Below, piece by piece: positions 4,369-16,932 of a stretch of DNA of 20,154 bases. Under the pieces are notes generated by a model that was given only the letters and a program-made list of their open reading frames with translations, had not been told where the DNA came from and did not search any database. The stretch spans positions 1 through 20,154 of IMG/VR virus record IMGVR_UViG_3300030104_001614, one strand, 5' to 3'. A program made the translations under genes and the position numbers. Source of the DNA: a virus. Within the stretch, counting starts at the first letter, position 1, and each line of letters begins with the position of its first letter.

Positions 4369-4375
4369 CTAGGGT
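4348..4375. terminator. Hairpin at the end of the exonuclease gene
   Basis: Perfect 10-bp inverted repeat ACCCTAGATG / CATCTAGGGT with an 8-base loop. The exonuclease stop codon lies inside the stem. The T-rich tail (TTTTGTTTT) follows on the plus strand, so by the usual rule it would stop rightward transcripts best; on the coding (minus) strand the tail is CTTGTAAAAAA. It may be a terminator or an RNA-processing/stability hairpin between the replication and head units. Confidence 0.6.
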
Positions 4376-5115
4376 TTTGTTTTGGGATTCCATAGTTTTA
4401 CTTCACCTGTACTGTAGTTATAGTCTCCTTCTCTTAATATTCTTGTAAGTCTTACATTGAGAATAGCATCAGCAATACTATGACCTTTCTTTGTATATGT
4501 CTCCTGTACTTTTGACCATAGTGCTTCTCTAGTATCAGGTGTATTAGCTAGTGTTTTAGAAGCAGTAACCATACCCATACCTTTAAGACCTGCAATACCA
4601 TCACCTGAGTCACCAGCTAGTGACATTTCAAACCAATGCCTATCAGCTTTCTTCTCTGTGATATGTAAGATCTCATCTTCTTGTATTAACTTACAAGGTA
4701 TAGTCTTCATGTCTTTATCAACAGAAACTATGATTGGATTTTTATACTGACCGTTCGTGGCTAAAAGACCTAATACATCATCACCTTCTAAGTTTGGATA
4801 AGCAGCAGATTCATACTCATTCTTAATTTTTTTAATAATACTTTTAAGTGCTAGTGGTTTTCGTTTACCTATCCTATTAAGTTTGTACTCAGGAAATATT
4901 TCATGTCGAAATGTAGGGTAAGAAGTAAAGCACATAACCACATCATGCTTGTCTTCTGCTATCTGTTTATATACTTCTAACCTGTTTTCAATCAGGTTCA
5001 TAATATCTCTTTCATCAGAGTGAAGAGTATGTTGCCATTCATTCCACCTTGTATCTACTTCGCAAGCACAACAAGAAGAATAGACTAGCCAATCAGCATC
5101 AATTAATAAAGTCAT
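4369..5115 (-). CDS. 5'-3' exonuclease, T7 gp6-like (FEN family)
   Basis: A 248-residue flap/5'-nuclease-family protein. In T7 the gp6 exonuclease degrades host DNA for nucleotides, removes RNA primers and helps process concatemers. Metal-binding acidic residues appear in order: D6 and D8 (LLIDADW), E110/D112/D113 (LEGDDVLG), D133/D135 (SVDKDMK) and D169/D172 in GDSGDGIAGLKGMG, which begins the helix-3-turn-helix DNA-binding motif. It overlaps the primase-helicase stop by 4 bases (ATGA), so the two are translationally coupled. In T7 a DNA polymerase gene stands between them; here it does not. Confidence 0.9.
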   Translation of the reverse strand: MTLLIDADWLVYSSCCACEVDTRWNEWQHTLHSDERDIMNLIENRLEVYKQIAEDKHDVVMCFTSYPTFRHEIFPEYKLNRIGKRKPLALKSIIKKIKNEYESAAYPNLEGDDVLGLLATNGQYKNPIIVSVDKDMKTIPCKLIQEDEILHITEKKADRHWFEMSLAGDSGDGIAGLKGMGMVTASKTLANTPDTREALWSKVQETYTKKGHSIADAILNVRLTRILREGDYNYSTGEVKLWNPKTKP

Positions 5116-6725
5116 AGTTCAGCAAAATCATTTTCATATACGATTAATCGACCTGTCTTTTGGTCGTATAATAATTTATCTACCTCACCTGTCATCCCTG
5201 TATGTCTAGACTTGAGTACCTTTAACTGTAATCGCTGTCTCTCACTAGCATCCCCTGTCTGGTTTCTGGAAGCCGAGAGTACGACATCACTTAGTTGAAG
5301 TAGTGAATGAGATCCTCTTAAGTCTGAAGTATCAACCTCCCTGCCTGACTCATGTGATTGTCCTTGTGGCCTTCGTAAGTGACTGACTAATACAAGAGCT
5401 ATACCAGTAGCTTCACATAAACTTCTCAGCTTGGTCATTATTATATCTATTGCTTTACGTTCATTATCTAATTCAAGACCAGATAAAACTATACTGATGT
5501 GGTCAAGAATTACTACCTGCACTCCATCAACTGTTGCTAAATATCTTATCTGTTCTAGCAATACATCAGGTTCAAGACTTCCAAAATGATTGTATAAAAA
5601 AAGACTGCGACTTGACGTAAGTTTGTCAAATGCAGTCCGTAGCTTAGTTTCGTCTATACCATCTTCATCTAAGTGCAAAGGTACATTCATGTCAATACCT
5701 ACCAGACCTTGAAGAGTTCTTTGTACTGATTCTTCAAGTCCTATATAACCAACCTGTAATCCTCTCTTTAAAAAGTGATGGCAAAACTCCCTGCAAATTG
5801 TGGATTTACCTGCTCCACTTGCGGAAGCTACTGTGAATAGCTGACTAGGAAACAAACCTCTTGTAAAATTGTTTAACTTTGGAAAAGGAAAATCTGTTAC
5901 AGCTTTACTTGTTTCTTTAGTAAACAAATCCCAAGCGTCTGCTGCATTAATAAGAGAGTCAGGTCTTACAGGTTTAGCACCCCATAGTTTTTTCTTTACT
6001 ATCTCTCCCTCTCCAAGTACAAGATGATCGTTGACATCATTACGATCTAACCTAGCTATTGCAACCTTACCTTTAGGTAGTACTTCTAAACATTTCTCTA
6101 CTGCTTTATTACCTGCGTCATCATTATCAAAGCATAAGACTATACGACAATAAGTATCTAACCATTTGTAGTTGGCTGCCAAATACTTAGCTGCTGACTG
6201 TACTCCTGATGGGATAGAGATACAGGGAAACTTGTTACCTTGTATTTGTGACCCACTCATACAATCAATTTCGCCTTCAAAGCAACTAACAAATACAGAT
6301 CCATTACTACCATGTTGTCGCCATAGATGCTGACCCCATAGCTGTACGTTAGATATGTCTCCTAACCAAACAAACTTCTTATCTTGAAAACGTATATGTT
6401 GTGCTACATCCCTTCCTTTCTGGTCTTTATAAGTAGCAACTTGTACAGGTTGCCCTCTATATTCTGCCTGTCCATATCCAAATAGTTCGCAAGTTTCTTT
6501 GGTGATTCCACGTTTAGCTAAAGCTATAGGTGTTACCTTCAATAGTTTTGGATTTGTTTTCTTTAGTGGAATAACATTCGTCACTTTCTTTTCCTTGTTT
6601 TGGTTTGGGTAGTAGGTGTATTCGCAGTCCATAGTGAAGCAATGTTCATGTCCATCATCAAAGACTGCACAATTTTTTTTGCCACAATCAGGGCAAACTT
6701 TTTTATTCTTGTATGTGCTTTTCAT
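5112..6725 (-). CDS. Primase-helicase, T7 gp4-like
   Basis: A 537-residue bifunctional enzyme (T7 gp4 is 566) that unwinds the fork and synthesises RNA primers. A zinc ribbon with C11, C14, C29 and C34 recognises priming sites. The TOPRIM primase core shows FEGEID (E150, E152) and FDNDDAG (D200, D202, D203). The RecA-like hexameric helicase has Walker A SASGAGKST (301-309), Walker B VVILDH (D408) and a SHLRRP segment. All catalytic residues seem present. Start is ATG at 6723-6725, overlapping the end of a small upstream gene. It lies in a polycistron from ssDNA-binding protein to exonuclease. Confidence 0.95.
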   Translation of the reverse strand: MKSTYKNKKVCPDCGKKNCAVFDDGHEHCFTMDCEYTYYPNQNKEKKVTNVIPLKKTNPKLLKVTPIALAKRGITKETCELFGYGQAEYRGQPVQVATYKDQKGRDVAQHIRFQDKKFVWLGDISNVQLWGQHLWRQHGSNGSVFVSCFEGEIDCMSGSQIQGNKFPCISIPSGVQSAAKYLAANYKWLDTYCRIVLCFDNDDAGNKAVEKCLEVLPKGKVAIARLDRNDVNDHLVLGEGEIVKKKLWGAKPVRPDSLINAADAWDLFTKETSKAVTDFPFPKLNNFTRGLFPSQLFTVASASGAGKSTICREFCHHFLKRGLQVGYIGLEESVQRTLQGLVGIDMNVPLHLDEDGIDETKLRTAFDKLTSSRSLFLYNHFGSLEPDVLLEQIRYLATVDGVQVVILDHISIVLSGLELDNERKAIDIIMTKLRSLCEATGIALVLVSHLRRPQGQSHESGREVDTSDLRGSHSLLQLSDVVLSASRNQTGDASERQRLQLKVLKSRHTGMTGEVDKLLYDQKTGRLIVYENDFAEL

Positions 6726-8148: not shown

Positions 8149-10545
8149 TTAAGTAAATATATATGGTGCTGTCAACACATCTGTTATATCAAACTCCCCC
8201 ATGTGTAGTGCTGGCGGTAACTCGTTGCTATCACTTAGTTGTTGTACTGATTGATGATATAAATTATCTAAATTATTATCGCTATAAATATTGAAGAAAC
8301 TTTGCTTAACACATTCAATAAATCTTTCAAGTTCACTAGCTGGACTTCCATAACAATCGTGGATAATACAAAAGTTTTTTAACCCCTGTTTACCAGCTTC
8401 AACTAAACTCATGTGACAATGTGCTGCGTCAAGACTATGAATATAATTACTTGGAAAACCCTGTATTTGTTTTCGTTTATCTATCTTTGTTTTATTAGAT
8501 TCATTTAAAGATAACTTGATACTTGAATTACTTATCTTTGTTGTTACTCTTTTTGCTTGGCTTTGATAATAATTTTGTTGAACATAAAAACCACTAGGAC
8601 TATGCCAAGCTATCGGTTTATTTTCTTTATTAAAACATTTTGCTATATCTGTTAAATGATTTAATAGTTGTGGTGACTCAGGGGTTACATACTTAACAGC
8701 TTGCTCGATCATAACTGCAAGATAAAAATTGTTCTTAAAATTTTTGGCCATAAAAACATTTTCATTTACAAAATATTTTTCTATATAATTTGCTATACCG
8801 TATGTCGTTGAATTATAAGGAACCATTAATACAGGTTTCTTTATAAATGCTCTTGTAAATTTATCTCGTTCTTTATACCACTCTTTAGCTTGGTCTGTAG
8901 TGTCATGTTTTAATAGCATAAGCAATACATCTAACACTTGTTTATATAAGTCTTGTGGCTTTTTAACTATCTGCAAGTTAACTTTATTCGCTAACTTTTG
9001 ATTACCTGTAAGACCTGCTATGTGTTGATAACCATTGTTTGTACCATCAAGACAACAAACATGATGTGATACATAACCCCAACCATGTATTTGAAATTCA
9101 CTCCATTCTTTACACCATTGCAAAAATTGAAATGGTTCTTTTGCTTGACCCCAAATATCTATATTACTAATAGGGTCTTTATAAACATCTTCAGCCCAAT
9201 CAGTACCAAGAGAATGTGCAAACTTTATTCTATCTTCATACGATTCTTTGTTTAATCCATAGTGATTGGCTCCGCTAATTGCCAGCCAGTTTAGTTGCTC
9301 CATATTATCTATAGCTGCACCCCTATTAAATATATGTAAACCTCTAGCTATGTCATTTCCTTGTGGGTGAAAGTTAGCAGTAACAGGGTACATTCTTCCT
9401 GTCCAATCAAATTGATATATGTGATGAAATTTTTCACCAACATATTTTTTTGCAGTATCAATCATAGATATTATTTGATACCGTTTGCTTTTATTTTGTG
9501 CGTTCATATCATGTATTAAGGATGCTAAGTATCTCCACTCCTTCCAAGCTTCTGGATCTTGTTCTTTATTGATTGGTTTCGTTGGTACTTCCTTAAGTTC
9601 TCTATCAATCAATGAACCTACCTCTATACGTTCTTCCCAACAGTATTCAAGAATATCAAGAACAAATTTATCTACTGTCCACTCAGTTTGACTTGCCAAA
9701 GATAACGCTTTCAGACATAGTGTTAAGTCTTGTTCTTGTACTTTTTTTAAATGGTCTCGATCAGTAGATTTTATTGCTCTTGTTTGTAATCTGTCTGTAA
9801 AATATCCTCCATCATTTATTGATGTCCACTCTCTAGGTTTATCGTAACAAGGTAATAGTTGTGGATATAAAGCTATCCTGTTAGCTCTACCCTGTTGTAT
9901 ATATTTCATATAAACATCAGTAAAAACAACAAAACTTGTTGTAGTTTTACCAACTCTTTTACTAATAAATTTAATCATTTTTAATTTCATTGCTGTAAGT
10001 TCTATTAACTTCAATCCAACTCTTAATTTATTAGTCCTAGACCAAGGTTCAAAGCTATGACCTTTACGGTTCATGTGATGAATCATTACACGTTTTTTAT
10101 ATCCGTCATGGTTGGTATCTTTTGTATGGTTTTTTATAGCTTTAAAATGTTTAGGGTCTTGCTTTTCAAACTCAGTAAACCTAAGTTCATCTTCTAACAT
10201 TTGACCTATCTTTACAGCAGTTTGCGTTGTAGTTTTTTGTACACTTATACAATCAATAATTTGTTTAAAAGCAATAAAAGAAACTACATCTAAGTCAGGG
10301 AATTTTGATAAATAAATTGCAGATATAACTTGCCTTCCAGCTTTACCAGTAAAAGAAACTTTAATATGTTCTTTAAGATATTTTGTAAGCTTATCGAGAC
10401 CTGCTTCAATTAAATTTCTAGCGTAATAATTTTCAGATTCTTTCCCTTTTTCTATATTTTTATTTTGTTTACTGATCTTGTTATAGGCTGAGATACTACA
10501 GATACTTTGCTCTAGCTCTAGTTGTTTCTTACTTGGTTCAATCAT
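8149..10545 (-). CDS. Single-subunit DNA-dependent RNA polymerase, T7 gp1-like
   Basis: A 798-residue T7-family RNA polymerase (T7: 883), which would transcribe the middle and late genes from phage promoters. Motif A is LDGTNNGYQHIAGL with catalytic D500. Motif B includes KKPVLMVPYNSTTYG (about 566-580), with the Lys and Tyr needed for nucleotide selection. Motif C is IIHDCYGSP with D730. The promoter specificity loop should lie around 670-695, before GFPSNYIHSLDAAH. It is ~85 residues shorter than T7, mostly in the N-terminal and inter-motif regions; Syn5-like cyanophage enzymes are also short. Its ATG overlaps the integrase 3' end by 8 bases. Confidence 0.95.
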   Translation of the reverse strand: MIEPSKKQLELEQSICSISAYNKISKQNKNIEKGKESENYYARNLIEAGLDKLTKYLKEHIKVSFTGKAGRQVISAIYLSKFPDLDVVSFIAFKQIIDCISVQKTTTQTAVKIGQMLEDELRFTEFEKQDPKHFKAIKNHTKDTNHDGYKKRVMIHHMNRKGHSFEPWSRTNKLRVGLKLIELTAMKLKMIKFISKRVGKTTTSFVVFTDVYMKYIQQGRANRIALYPQLLPCYDKPREWTSINDGGYFTDRLQTRAIKSTDRDHLKKVQEQDLTLCLKALSLASQTEWTVDKFVLDILEYCWEERIEVGSLIDRELKEVPTKPINKEQDPEAWKEWRYLASLIHDMNAQNKSKRYQIISMIDTAKKYVGEKFHHIYQFDWTGRMYPVTANFHPQGNDIARGLHIFNRGAAIDNMEQLNWLAISGANHYGLNKESYEDRIKFAHSLGTDWAEDVYKDPISNIDIWGQAKEPFQFLQWCKEWSEFQIHGWGYVSHHVCCLDGTNNGYQHIAGLTGNQKLANKVNLQIVKKPQDLYKQVLDVLLMLLKHDTTDQAKEWYKERDKFTRAFIKKPVLMVPYNSTTYGIANYIEKYFVNENVFMAKNFKNNFYLAVMIEQAVKYVTPESPQLLNHLTDIAKCFNKENKPIAWHSPSGFYVQQNYYQSQAKRVTTKISNSSIKLSLNESNKTKIDKRKQIQGFPSNYIHSLDAAHCHMSLVEAGKQGLKNFCIIHDCYGSPASELERFIECVKQSFFNIYSDNNLDNLYHQSVQQLSDSNELPPALHMGEFDITDVLTAPYIFT

Positions 10546-11380
10546 TCAATACACCTACAACAGAATGTAAGGCTCTTGGCTGTAGGTGTGCATAGATCAT
10601 GGTTGTCTTTATATCTTCATGACCTAACCAATCCTTAACAAGTAGCAAAGGAACCCCACGTTGCACCAATCTGCTTGCTGTTGTATGTCTACATAGGTGT
10701 AAGGTATAAAACTTTTTATCGGCATAACCTAACGACTTTCTAGCGTCTTGCCAGATACCGTTGAGCTGGTCATATTCAAGACTAAATAACCTATCAAAAT
10801 CTTTTACTTCTCTGTAGTATCTCCTTATTTTTACTTGTACTCTATCGGTCATAGGTACAGCTACAGCTTGATCGTTTTTTCTATCGTTAAAGTTAATTTG
10901 ATTATTGTCAAAGTCAACAAATCTTTTTTCTAATCCAAGTAGTTCATTGACCCTGCAACCAAGATCAATAAGGCAACTAACTATATCAAATGCTTCATAG
11001 TAATCATTTTGTATAAAATATTTAAGAAGTTCATCTTCCATATCTTGAGTTAAATATTCTACCTTTTGTTTCTTTATCCTATGTCTTTTGGGTAGTCTAA
11101 CTTTATCAATATATCCGTCATCAATCATGTGATCTAAAACTGTTTTTAAATAACCTCGTTTTGTATTAACAACAGCCTTACTATTTTTTAATTTTAATAG
11201 TAAGTAATCCATCATTTTATTTACAACAGGTGTTGTAATTTTGTTTACTTTTAAATCTCCAATAGCTTGAATGTTATGCTTCATAGCTGTAAGAAAATTC
11301 TTGGCTGAGTCAGTACCGTTGTACTGTCTTTTATACACTATCCGAGTAGCTTCCGATAGCGTTGGAATTGTTTTTTTCAT
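10538..11380 (-). CDS. int: Tyrosine recombinase (integrase)
   Basis: A 280-residue phage integrase with an N-terminal SAM-like core-binding region (about 10-95) and a catalytic domain. The catalytic set appears complete: R143 (GCRVNELLG), a probable Lys near 168, H228 and R231 (HLCRH), H254 (LGHED) and nucleophile Y263 (MIYAHL). Such enzymes insert phage DNA at an attachment site, often a tRNA gene. T7-like cyanophages typically carry an integrase just before RNA polymerase, although lysogeny by them is rarely shown. The start ATG at 11378-11380 is preceded by AGAACCACT. I found no tRNA-like attP in this window. Confidence 0.92.
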   Translation of the reverse strand: MKKTIPTLSEATRIVYKRQYNGTDSAKNFLTAMKHNIQAIGDLKVNKITTPVVNKMMDYLLLKLKNSKAVVNTKRGYLKTVLDHMIDDGYIDKVRLPKRHRIKKQKVEYLTQDMEDELLKYFIQNDYYEAFDIVSCLIDLGCRVNELLGLEKRFVDFDNNQINFNDRKNDQAVAVPMTDRVQVKIRRYYREVKDFDRLFSLEYDQLNGIWQDARKSLGYADKKFYTLHLCRHTTASRLVQRGVPLLLVKDWLGHEDIKTTMIYAHLQPRALHSVVGVLND

Positions 11381-13642: not shown

Positions 13643-14593
13643 CTATTGCTCACCTATTACTAGGTCAGCCGCTTTAACAGCACTTGAGAATACTTTCATA
13701 AGGTTAGATGCTTTACCATCTAAAGCACTTATCCAAGACTCAAAATAAGATACATGATTTTGAGTATCACAACTTATTTGAAGTCTATTAGAAATTAACA
13801 AGCTAGAAAATTCTGCTGTCAATTCTTCCAATGCTCGGTTACTTGTTTTTGAGTAACCTTTTAACCATGCTCTATCTAACCTTTTAGAGTTACCAGTAGC
13901 ATGAGAAAATTCATGAGCAAGTGTTGATAAATAAGCTTCATCATTTTTAAAAGTTGATCTATCAGGCATAACTACCATATCTAAACTAGGCTTGTAATAT
14001 GCACTATCTGAACCATGCTTAAGACCGCCTTCTAATTGATCTTTGAAGATCATTAAACGATCATGAGCAAGCTTACATCTTTTAGCTAGTGGTTTAGCTT
14101 TCTTATCGCAATTAGTTTTATGATCTTGAATGATCTTATCTAATTTTGCTTGGGACTTGCTATCCTTACCAGCCATATCTTGAATGTTAAAAACAGTAGC
14201 ACCTTTAAATCTAGTTTTAATAATAAATTCTTGGTTCCCATCTTTATCAAGAATAGGTTTATTATTCTCATCTTTAAGATCAATTTTTATTAAATTTGGT
14301 CTTAAAATTCTGGCACATTTTGCACCTTTTTTAACTATAAAATTTTCTTTTTTAGCCTGAGAATAACCAGCCCATAAAGCTAAGTCTTGACCTCTAGAAA
14401 ACATATACATTTCTAGTAATAAAGGATTAGCTCCTGAGTATTCATGACCAGTTAAAAAATTAGTGTGAACACCTGAGTTAGTAGGTGTCCAAGGTTTATG
14501 CCAAGGTGACTTATTTTTATTGGAATTAATGATATTCATTAAATCCTCTAAAATCTGTTCTTCTACTTTGACTTGTGGTTTTGAAAATGCCAT
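13643..14593 (-). CDS. ArdC-type antirestriction protein (ssDNA-binding domain plus zinc metallopeptidase)
   Basis: A 316-residue protein with the two-part ArdC layout. The N-terminal ssDNA-binding domain (about 8-140) shows ILEDLMNII...PWHKPW, TNFLTGHEYSGANPLLL, LWAGYSQAKK, VKKGAKCARIL and ATVFNIQDM. The C-terminal SprT/IrrE-like metallopeptidase has AHEFSH (H227, E228, H231) and a downstream ELTAEF Glu. Plasmid ArdC protects incoming DNA from restriction. The start at 14591-14593 (MAFSKPQV) is chosen because family homology begins there; an upstream in-frame Met adds 23 AT-coded residues unlike the family. It is the first gene after the putative genome end. There is no ribosome binding site. 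Confidence 0.88.
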   Translation of the reverse strand: MAFSKPQVKVEEQILEDLMNIINSNKNKSPWHKPWTPTNSGVHTNFLTGHEYSGANPLLLEMYMFSRGQDLALWAGYSQAKKENFIVKKGAKCARILRPNLIKIDLKDENNKPILDKDGNQEFIIKTRFKGATVFNIQDMAGKDSKSQAKLDKIIQDHKTNCDKKAKPLAKRCKLAHDRLMIFKDQLEGGLKHGSDSAYYKPSLDMVVMPDRSTFKNDEAYLSTLAHEFSHATGNSKRLDRAWLKGYSKTSNRALEELTAEFSSLLISNRLQISCDTQNHVSYFESWISALDGKASNLMKVFSSAVKAADLVIGEQ

Positions 14594-14597
14594 TTGA

Positions 14598-14610
14598 ATT
14601 AGTGAGATAG
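14598..14610 (-). promoter_or_regulatory. CTATCTCACTAAT element just before the ArdC start
   Basis: The minus strand reads CTATCTCACTAAT, identical to the 13-mer at 4314-4326 before the head module and close to the T7 promoter core CTCACTATA. If used as a phage promoter, the transcript would start only a few bases before the ATG, so the message would be nearly leaderless. A host-type pair (TTAATA, 16 bases, TATTAT) lies just upstream on the same strand. A 13-base match alone could be chance in AT-rich DNA. Confidence 0.35.
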
Positions 14611-14701
14611 TTTTAATAATAGAATTTAATCTATTGATATTAATATATATACTAATATCCAAAAAGTAAATACTATGTAAACTTTTGTTACTTTCTTATT
14701 T

Positions 14702-14842
14702 ATTTGTTTATACTTTCTTATCCTTTTTTATTCCCTTATTGTTTATATTTTTGTTTCTCTAATTTATCTTTAATTGTTTATATTTTTTATTCTTTAATTT
14801 ATCCTTAATTCTTTATATTTTTTGTTGCTTATCTTCTATCCA
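14702..14842. repeat. Degenerate 35-bp tandem repeat array, about four copies
   Basis: Units begin ATTGTTTATATTTTT and end TTTATCYTTA. The clearest copies are 14738-14772 and 14773-14807 (both 35 bp), then a diverged copy at 14808-14842 (ATTCTTTATATTTTTTG...) and one before them at 14702-14737 (ATTTGTTTATACTTTC...). The plus strand is almost pure A/T/C-poor pyrimidine. Candidate roles are a terminal-repeat flank, terminase or replication-origin recognition, or DNA bending. The array is not coding on either strand. Confidence 0.7.
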
Positions 14843-14870
14843 ATTCTTATTACTTTTTATTTACTAATTG

Positions 14871-14959
14871 TACTCACTAAATAATACTACCGATTACTTA
14901 GAAATTGATTTGTAAGTAACATTTTTGATTTGACTACAAATACCCACTAAATAATATTA
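14871..14959. repeat. 19-bp direct repeat pair
   Basis: TAC[T/C]CACTAAATAATA[C/T]TA occurs at 14871-14889 and 14941-14959, exactly 70 bases apart, with 17 of 19 bases identical. On the minus strand the units read TA[A/G]TATTATTTAGTG[A/G]GTA. Read on the plus strand, the first copy with its upstream bases (TAATTGTACTCACTAAATAA) looks like the T7 promoter, but it would point toward no gene. As minus-strand units they may be the start regions of tandem early host promoters. Confidence 0.7.
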
Positions 14960-14988
14960 TATATATTCTGAGACACCAGTTATATCAA
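14960..14988 (-). promoter_or_regulatory. Candidate host sigma70 promoter upstream of the early region
   Basis: Minus strand TTGATA (14983-14988), a 17-base gap, then TATATA (14960-14965). The predicted start falls in the second copy of the 19-bp direct repeat. It faces the ArdC gene ~360 bases downstream. The position corresponds to T7's A1-A3 early promoters. In such AT-rich DNA -10 boxes are common, so the support comes mainly from the -35 box and spacing. Confidence 0.45.
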
Positions 14989-15194
14989 TGATTTTGCCTA
15001 GAAAAACCTTTATATATATAGAAAATTAAGTCGAATGGGGAATTTTGGGGTCGACATATACGCTATACCCCTTCAAATTTTTCCGTTAAATTTTTTTTAG
15101 TAAGAAACCATCAAGCAAACTGTCCAAAGAACAGACAGGGAAGGGGATCTGAGAGGGATTCTTAAGGAGTACCTTAGTGTAAGGAGTAAGTTCT

Positions 15195-15213
15195 TCTCCT
15201 ATAGTGTCCATTA
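15195..15213 (-). promoter_or_regulatory. Strong candidate phage RNA polymerase promoter (SP6/T7 type)
   Basis: The minus strand reads TTAATGGACACTATAGGAGA, beginning at the terminase stop codon. GACACTATAGGAGA matches the SP6 promoter core GACACTATAGAAGA at 13 of 14 bases and shares CACTATAGG with T7. The implied start is the G at 15199. It fires leftward into the gene-free region and then the early genes. T7 has comparable promoters (phiOL, phiOR) at its genome ends linked to replication and packaging. It is the best evidence here for what this phage's RNA polymerase recognises. Confidence 0.7.
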
Positions 15214-16932
15214 ATAGCGTTTATCAATGAAACCATCATCAGATACGTTGGTATTTCTAATTTGTTGAGGAGTCATCCCCATAGCAGATTGAGATATGGT
15301 GTTATTCAGAAGGGAACCCCAGTTATCTAGGTGAATGGAGAGGAGTTCATCTTTACGTTTAGCGATATTTGTATCTTCAGTTTGAGCCATGTACTCAGTC
15401 CAGTAGCCAACTGCCCCTGCGAGTGAGTCAGCGAGGTCATCATGAACGAGAGAACCTCTATGTCTTGATAGTCGGGATAGTTGATAGACAAGTTGAAGCT
15501 TTAATCTACGTTCAGGAGTTTCTTCAGGGTTAGAACGGAAGTCTTTTTCTATCACTTTCTGGTCAATTATTAGACGGTGAGAGTTCATAACAGGTTCTAA
15601 GGTATCAATTATTCGCAGTTCTTTAGTCTTATTGTTTCTGACATCTTCTAGTTGGCATGGATGAAATCGCATTAGGAAAGGTTTTAGAAGTTGAGAGAAC
15701 ATACCGCCACCAAAGTTTTGTTCAACAAGTATTTTATTGATCTTATTATCTCTAGCAACCTTGGCTATCTTCTCAAGAACCCTATCTGAGTACCCCCCAG
15801 AGAGACCTAAACACTCTGTTACGTATAAATTACCGTTCAACATTTTTACACAGCTTATAGCGGTCTGATCCTTACCAGTTCCAGATGGGTCAACGAACAT
15901 AACGGAACCTGTATATTCTATGAAGTCTCCAAATTGTTGGGCAGGTCGGTAAAACCTGTCACCGTTAAAGCCTACACATTGCAGATCGGTGATTACATAT
16001 TCGGGAGAGTTGGACCAAATAACTTTTTCGGGAGCAAATTCTTTATTAACTGGCATTATTACGAGGTCATTTATTTTTAATGGGTAACGATCTTGGTCAG
16101 ATAGTGTTGTATCTAGCTGGAATTGCAGGTTAAAGCCACTACGACCATAAGAAGCTTCTCTTTCCATAAGATCCTGTGCAGAGAACCTAATCGGGTCTAC
16201 AGGGTCTTTTGGTTGGGCTATACCGTCTGTTAATTCCTTGAGAATTTTAGGAGCAAGTCTATCTCCGTAGTTATTTTTTAGATTTGGGTAACGTGCAGTC
16301 CATATTCGTGTTTCATATCCTCTTTCTTCTAGTGTTAGGTACACAGAATTTTCTACTTGAGGAGTACCAAGAAAGGTAATCTTACCGTTAGGTTTTAGGA
16401 TTGCTTCAAATTCTTTTACAGCTTCACTAAGTTTGTCTCTCATTGGTTGAGTAAAAGAATTATTAGGAACCTCTACGTCATCAGCAATTACTTCGTCTGC
16501 CCTAGCTCCTGACATCTGCCCTAGAACCCCTCTAGAAGAGCATGAGGGAGCATGGTCAGCTTGTGCTGGTCTTACATCAAAACTCACTTTACTGTTTCTC
16601 TGGTCATCCCTAGGTATCAACCCAGAAAGGATTGGCATTTCGTTTATAAGACGCATAGTAAAGGTCGTAAAATTATCAGCTCTGTCTTTACTGGCAGATA
16701 CAACTAAGAACTTTAGTTGTGGGTTCATACGAAGTCGCCACACAACGTAAGTAGAAGTAATCCAACTTTTACCTACCCCACGAAATCCTTGAATGATCTT
16801 ACGTCTAGCACCATATTGTAGATATTCAGCTATATCTAACTGAACAGGAGTAGGATCTGGTAGGTTTAGATGTCTCCAAGTAACGATTAAGAAATATCTA
16901 AAGTCTTGTAATTTTTCTGGTAAAGGATGCAA
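15211..16932 (-). CDS. Large terminase subunit (DNA maturase B), T7 gp19-like
   Basis: A 573-residue packaging motor and nuclease (T7 gp19 is 586). ATPase: Walker A GFRGVGKS (49-56), Walker B VIADDVE (148-154) and the coupling motif ITFLGTPQ (185-192). The RNase H-fold nuclease has D348 (MFVDPSGTGKD), E404 (ILVEQNFGGG) and D498/D499/D502 (VHDDLADS). It cuts concatemers and pumps DNA through the portal. The start appears to be TTG at 16930-16932, immediately after and in frame with the small-terminase stop; the next Met is residue 70, which would delete Walker A. No ribosome binding site is visible, so it probably depends on reinitiation. Confidence 0.94.
   Translation of the reverse strand: MHPLPEKLQDFRYFLIVTWRHLNLPDPTPVQLDIAEYLQYGARRKIIQGFRGVGKSWITSTYVVWRLRMNPQLKFLVVSASKDRADNFTTFTMRLINEMPILSGLIPRDDQRNSKVSFDVRPAQADHAPSCSSRGVLGQMSGARADEVIADDVEVPNNSFTQPMRDKLSEAVKEFEAILKPNGKITFLGTPQVENSVYLTLEERGYETRIWTARYPNLKNNYGDRLAPKILKELTDGIAQPKDPVDPIRFSAQDLMEREASYGRSGFNLQFQLDTTLSDQDRYPLKINDLVIMPVNKEFAPEKVIWSNSPEYVITDLQCVGFNGDRFYRPAQQFGDFIEYTGSVMFVDPSGTGKDQTAISCVKMLNGNLYVTECLGLSGGYSDRVLEKIAKVARDNKINKILVEQNFGGGMFSQLLKPFLMRFHPCQLEDVRNNKTKELRIIDTLEPVMNSHRLIIDQKVIEKDFRSNPEETPERRLKLQLVYQLSRLSRHRGSLVHDDLADSLAGAVGYWTEYMAQTEDTNIAKRKDELLSIHLDNWGSLLNNTISQSAMGMTPQQIRNTNVSDDGFIDKRY

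Follow-up and report, generated by a model that had tools for sequence, protein, structure and literature searches.

The best described relative of the gene treated here is ArdC of the plasmids R388 and pSa (6I89, 6SNA). In the available part of the R388 report, ArdC is required in the recipient cell, where it counteracts HsdRMS, a type I system that cuts double-stranded DNA; the protein prefers single-stranded DNA and overhangs, and the authors expect it to be synthesized only after the plasmid has become double-stranded (PMC7213743). The metal-ligand mutant E229A, which corresponds to E257 in the protein described below, keeps full conjugation-promoting activity (PMC7213743, same part). Excerpts of two further sources mention the family in other settings: a survey of polyvalent proteins found ArdC-N to be rare in those of phage type and suggested autoproteolytic release (PMC5512222), and one PF08401 protein of a Fonsibacter phage is named as possible protection (PMC6811365).

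Among described phages, the closest case is Prochlorococcus phage P-SCSP2 (OM416780) of the MPP-C clade, whose gene 42, deposited as a hypothetical protein, is 94% identical to the protein studied here and has the same flanks, namely the large terminase subunit (TerL), an integrase and the RNA polymerase (RNAP). The clade has been described as lacking a DNA polymerase, and the integrase of P-SCSP2 has been noted; the word 'restriction' is absent from the main text of that paper as available (PMC9860041). More distant ArdC-like proteins, 30-37% identical, are found near an integrase in three other marine autographiviruses, Pelagibacter phage HTVC011P (gp02), Cyanophage SS120-1 and MedDCM-OCT-S38-C3, where they are annotated as antirestriction proteins; other small genes precede ArdC there, and the HTVC011P protein falls in a different branch of the family. 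In T7 the early position before RNAP is held by Ocr (gp0.3), a small, strongly acidic DNA mimic. In the open-licence literature, we found no discussion of marine T7-like phages whose genomes open with ArdC and no antirestriction assay for any member of the ArdC branch described below.

The window, as we call the stretch analysed, is a whole virus record of 20,154 bases, and the end that enters the cell first is deduced from gene order. The features that bear on the argument are as follows.

13643..14593, minus strand: ardC-like gene, 316 aa (P0001); PF08401 and PF18818, PHROG 7245, 6i89/6sna, dN/dS about 0.1
14168..14563, minus strand: ArdC-N domain (ssDNA-binding type), residues 11-142, including the 'squiggle' VFNIQD at 134-139; Pfam ArdcN 11-135, and alignment to VFNADQ of R388
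13700..14026, minus strand: zincin-like metallopeptidase domain, residues 190-298, with H227, E228, H231, E257 and Y283; Pfam MPTase-PolyVal 190-298, and residue mapping to R388
14594..15210, no strand: AT-rich gap of 617 nt between TerL and ArdC; from sequence, with a function inferred from T7 gene order
14642..14670, minus strand: candidate sigma70-like promoter TTTACT-17-TATATT, about 48 nt before the ardC start codon
15194..15213, minus strand: TAATGGACACTATAGGAGAA, overlapping the TerL stop; a single occurrence in the window where chance would give none
15211..16932, minus strand: terminase large subunit, T7 type; PF22530 3.1e-35, PHROG 38
10538..11380, minus strand: tyrosine integrase; PF00589 1.1e-19
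8149..10545, minus strand: T7-type RNA polymerase; PF00940 4.2e-75, PHROG 414

The order on the minus strand is TerS, TerL, the 617-nt gap, ArdC, eight small ORFs (at least 40 aa each, of unknown function or weakly matched), integrase and RNAP, followed by SSB-like, endonuclease-like, primase-helicase, exonuclease and portal genes. The nearest complete genome, that of P-SCSP2, has the same gene order; its record is a permuted assembly whose break falls within the early region. TerL ends at 15211, and ardC is the first ORF of at least 40 aa to follow it if a 41-codon ORF overlapping the TerL stop is set aside. By analogy with T7, the gap between TerL and ArdC is presumed to hold the genome ends and early promoters. 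ArdC lies between this presumed left end and RNAP, on the RNAP strand, which is the class I (early) position of a T7-like phage. The first-entering position proposed in the earlier note thus stands in the sense that ArdC is the first substantial ORF past TerL and precedes both integrase and RNAP, with the left end placed by gene order. The window is a T7-like, integrase-bearing picocyanobacterial phage of MPP-C type, and ArdC fronts its early region. At 4369-6725 the exonuclease gene comes straight after the primase-helicase gene, and an intervening DNA polymerase gene is missing, in line with the description of the MPP-C clade.

The identity of the protein as an ArdC is well founded. Both Pfam domains exceed their curated cut-offs (PF08401, 4.6e-17, 62.8 bits against 22.6; PF18818, 2.8e-29, 102.2 bits against 27.5), PHROG 7245 ('anti-restriction protein') covers P0001 nearly end to end (2.6e-62), and the PDB sequence match is R388 ArdC (2e-23). 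The AlphaFold model (pLDDT 86.6, pTM 0.83, 32 sequences) matches 6sna_A, the R388 protein, with Z 23.1 over 256 residues and an rmsd of 3.4, so the predicted fold is also that of R388 ArdC; the next folds, IrrE (Z 6.4) and PprI (Z 5.5), score far lower. These and the lethal-factor matches are weak, and no fold beyond ArdC is claimed. The two-domain architecture with an HExxH centre, read earlier from the sequence, is likewise borne out: ArdC-N is joined to a metallopeptidase in which H227, E228 and H231 are intact, the motifs being HEFSH at 227-231, EE at 256-257, Y283 and VFNIQD at 134-139. By alignment, the metal ligands and catalytic residues of R388 ArdC, H201, E202, H205, E229 and Y255 (PMC7213743), correspond to H227, E228, H231, E257 and Y283 in the window, E202 being placed by the HExxH motif. 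NCBIfam gave no match up to E 0.01, and neither did PADLOC, whose library covers defence proteins and not counter-defence ones.

Relatives at 94% and about 59% identity begin at the same alignment column, which supports the start codon at 14593; a TTG-initiated version of 339 aa is also open. dN/dS against the near relatives P-SCSP2 and L007 is 0.08-0.11 (NG86) and lower with YN00; by this sequence measure ardC is under purifying selection. As judged from its sequence, ardC is a real, intact and functional-looking gene that is ordinary for its kind.

The window protein shares with R388/pSa ArdC the domain order, the HExxH and glutamate helix, the Y255 equivalent, the squiggle and the fold, but it is only 27% identical and differs in several respects. 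It is encoded in a phage early region rather than a plasmid stability region, it belongs to a separate tree branch in which the span from the VFN motif to HExxH is 91 residues against 78 in R388 (13 more), and it is basic (net charge +10, pI 9.24), whereas the R388 protein is near-neutral. Such a charge agrees with DNA binding and counts against Ocr-like mimicry. The proposal that ArdC functionally replaces Ocr amounts to an analogy of position, both genes being early and before RNAP; the proteins are unrelated. Also, the oddity that the earlier note saw in a protector of single-stranded DNA being used by a phage that injects double-stranded DNA largely dissolves, as R388 ArdC counters a type I system inside the recipient cell and does so with its protease dispensable (PMC7213743, in the part available). 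If it is made once the plasmid is double-stranded, a phage injecting double-stranded DNA is not an odd user of ArdC.

The region upstream of ardC holds a promoter-like site whose place is conserved in some relatives. The window's own site is weak alone (29 of 300 shuffles of its stretch score as high), and three loci that are near copies of one another (L009, L010 and L012) have TTGACA-17-TATATT at the same alignment place, a score reached in 0 of 300 shuffles. A good sigma70-like site also lies nearby in L018 (6 of 300 shuffles); in L007 the -35 match is lost and the best site is equalled in 211 of 300, and the scan gave nothing special in L002, L003, L004 and L017, the place scanned in L017 being a match edge and not a start codon. 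The conserved place supports, short of proof, early transcription of ardC by the host in this clade, and early expression of the gene is likely. The element TAATGGACACTATAGGAGAA at the TerL stop (15194..15213) resembles, as we take it by eye, a T7 RNAP promoter. Its inner 13-mer occurs in 10 of 296 loci (some of them duplicates), in near relatives of the window only and once per locus; when 13 intergenic regions of P-SCSP2 were compared, no motif recurred in the way that a set of phage RNAP promoters would. The gap also contains two copies of TATTATTTAGTGRGTA, at 14860-14889 and 14930-14959, 70 bp apart, of which P-SCSP2 has one exact and one degenerate copy.

Our leading reading, which we consider about evenly poised between right and wrong, is that the window ArdC serves in early antirestriction by binding DNA. 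Host RNA polymerase would transcribe ardC first, from a putative sigma70-type promoter just upstream; by homology with R388 ArdC, the basic ArdC-N domain may bind single-stranded or partly single-stranded phage DNA; and the bound protein would shield the incoming genome from a host type I enzyme until the DNA is modified, replicated or integrated. A target of this kind exists in some possible hosts, since, of 201 genomes from the family of Cyanobium sp. CH-040, 73 contain the type I specificity subunit PF01420 (14 of the 73 being 1.9 Mb or less), and in 128 it was not found, a family-wide count that is not specific to Prochlorococcus. The reading is favoured by the domains and fold, the invariant residues, the gene order, the place of the promoter-like site, purifying selection, the hosts with PF01420 and the activity of R388 ArdC; against it stand the distance from R388, the patchy occurrence of ArdC, the 128 of 201 genomes in which PF01420 was not found, and the conserved protease centre. 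If it is correct, the slot of Ocr is occupied in marine T7-like phages by a protein of unrelated structure, in parallel to the anti-defence genes that plasmids carry in their leading region (PMC11541004, in part). The reading can be put to the test in P-SCSP2, an isolate that grows on Prochlorococcus MED4.

The protease centre poses a sharper open question than the type of DNA that is bound, namely why it is invariant when it is dispensable in R388. The metal ligands, the general base and the tyrosine are unchanged in all 179 sequences compared (23/23 T7-like, 65/65 other viral, 80/80 from genome contigs and 11/11 from plasmids), counts that are partly shaped by the search patterns, an EE.. 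motif for the viral set and a ..HE motif for the genome set; in the viral set the HExxH residues and the tyrosine lie outside the pattern and were not selected for. The profile scan of viral contigs contributed its best 80 matches. Such invariance in spite of dispensability suggests a further function, and as E229A is fully active in R388, an H227/E228 protease mutant would probe a different function and not antirestriction. The protein may be a host-directed early protease, in which ArdC-N brings the metallopeptidase to DNA so that it cleaves a DNA-bound host factor (a repressor, a nucleoid protein or a defence protein, for instance), as IrrE/PprI or Spartan would. We hold this as a tentative alternative, clearly short of an even chance. 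The conservation in 179 sequences is stricter than would be expected of a relic, the best fold matches behind ArdC are IrrE and PprI, and ArdC-like peptidases of jumbo phages have been proposed to cleave host proteins in part of a review (PMC7824862); however, the fold matches are below the level that would indicate more than a common arrangement, and in the available part of the R388 work a pull-down gave only a YjgA-like protein and cleavage of HhaI was not seen (PMC7213743).

Searches across phages reveal that ArdC is rare among T7-like isolates, as only 56 of 50,697 phage records contain it (tblastn), many of them not T7-like (for example, Caulobacter jumbo phages), against 2116 records matched by the RNAP of the window (E limit 1e-30). 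Where ArdC and a T7-type RNAP occur together (19 loci after dropping two duplicates), RNAP follows ArdC on its strand in 17, or in 18 if P-SCSP2 is treated as circular. The exceptions are L001, the permuted P-SCSP2, and L053, in which RNAP is on the opposite strand and no integrase was found. In the 20 loci that have ArdC and a T7-type TerL, TerL lies upstream of ArdC on its own strand in 10 and on the other strand in nine, and downstream of it in one; the collinear layout with ArdC after TerL therefore accounts for only half of the cases. Some T7-like relatives, namely HTVC011P, SS120-1 and S38-C3, are already annotated with an antirestriction gene; the layout of ArdC before RNAP recurs, and this positional pattern is under-described.

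An integrase is found in 18 of the 19 loci, and together with the preference of R388 ArdC for single-stranded DNA and overhangs (PMC7213743, in part) this would suit an establishment factor, which binds exposed single-stranded stretches or ends and aids circularization or integration, with no role in antirestriction. This explanation is improbable in our view, because most T7-like relatives have an integrase in any case (20 of 27 loci that extend at least 3 kb upstream; Fisher p 0.115 against 18/19) and ArdC is absent from 18 of the 20 relatives that bear an integrase. Linkage between ArdC and integrase is not claimed on these counts.

The patchiness is seen from the side of RNAP as well: among 17 RNAP-anchored loci with at least 6 kb upstream, ArdC is present in two, both already in the ArdC set, and absent in 15. 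In L179, a close T7-like relative, TerL, integrase and RNAP are kept and the slot of ArdC holds a 128-aa protein. Taken together, the swap and the patchy occurrence indicate that ArdC is an optional occupant of an early slot. Both would also be expected of an accessory gene in an exchangeable early slot, giving a strain-specific benefit against a host defence other than type I restriction, an explanation that we regard as very doubtful: an antirestriction gene would be equally patchy, and PADLOC, as a defence library, indicated no other system. The L179 protein (L179:6033-6419) belongs to phrog_18284, of unknown function.

The descent of the gene was followed in three quick trees, all unrooted and with SH-aLRT alone as support: the first with 102 of the 181 extracted sequences, the second with 60, and the third, the widest in its sampling of hosts, with 72 including 18 from genomes. 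Eleven plasmid ArdCs, hand-chosen from 3137 matching records, were placed (eight in the two smaller trees). The smaller trees leave out the long-branch sequences L255, L262, L263, L084 and L100, near copies, and most rows from genome and viral contigs; L014, whose sequence is cut, was dropped from the trees, and in the third L285 and L280 are shorter sequences and L267 was too short to enter. All three unite the window ArdC with T7-like phages, other viral contigs and picocyanobacteria in one clade, which is distinct from R388 and the plasmid sequences of proteobacteria and is split from the plasmid ArdCs by starred branches. In the third tree this clade (SH-aLRT 99) holds 22 of 23 picocyanobacterial, 16 of 20 T7-like and 11 of 15 other viral rows, and the T7-like rows outside it are L002, L005, L061 and L062. 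The closest plasmid row in two trees, from a Synechococcus elongatus plasmid, is still outside the clade, and among the matches listed the best plasmid one shares 32.9% identity with the window protein, while the nearest phage one shares 94%. The suggestion of a plasmid-derived module is thus unsupported, as the window ArdC does not group with R388 or any other plasmid version sampled. Plasmid origin is rejected for lack of support and is not disproved at depth, the trees being unrooted and 11 of 3137 plasmid records being placed.

A single clade of T7-like ArdCs was rejected when the other viral contigs were counted as outsiders (p-AU 1.24e-59), a value owed mostly to unclassified viral contigs and picocyanobacterial rows that fall among the T7-like proteins; against plasmids and non-cyanobacterial cells alone, one such clade is not rejected (p-AU 0.329). 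As the result depends on the set of outsiders, no number of ArdC acquisitions is claimed. On the host side, ArdC-N is present in 58 of the 201 genomes of the picocyanobacterial family examined for PF01420. One bolder account, to which we assign a low probability, is that T7-like picocyanobacterial phages and their hosts share an ArdC branch of their own, exchanged between chromosome and phage and selected for early DNA-guided proteolysis of a host factor. If this were so, plasmid antirestriction would be only one face of the ArdC family.

Several smaller observations concern the records themselves. Some of the picocyanobacterial ArdC-N homologues (L095-L098, L267-L296) are chromosomal and, judged by eye in L096 and L098, lie among housekeeping-like genes; in twelve regions compared, neighbours are common to at most three. 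L034, the one contig inspected by eye in a sister group, differs in both terminase and portal and seems not to be T7-like. Deposited as a MarR regulator, gene 1 of Roseobacter phage CRP-804 (L005:1-909) is actually an ArdC homologue that shares 29% identity with the query over 95% of its length. In addition, the ArdC of Ssp-JY41, a 'Synechococcus phage', and that of a Ruegeria TM1040 plasmid are nearly identical (L265, L266), which suggests that this 20-kb record may not be a cyanophage.
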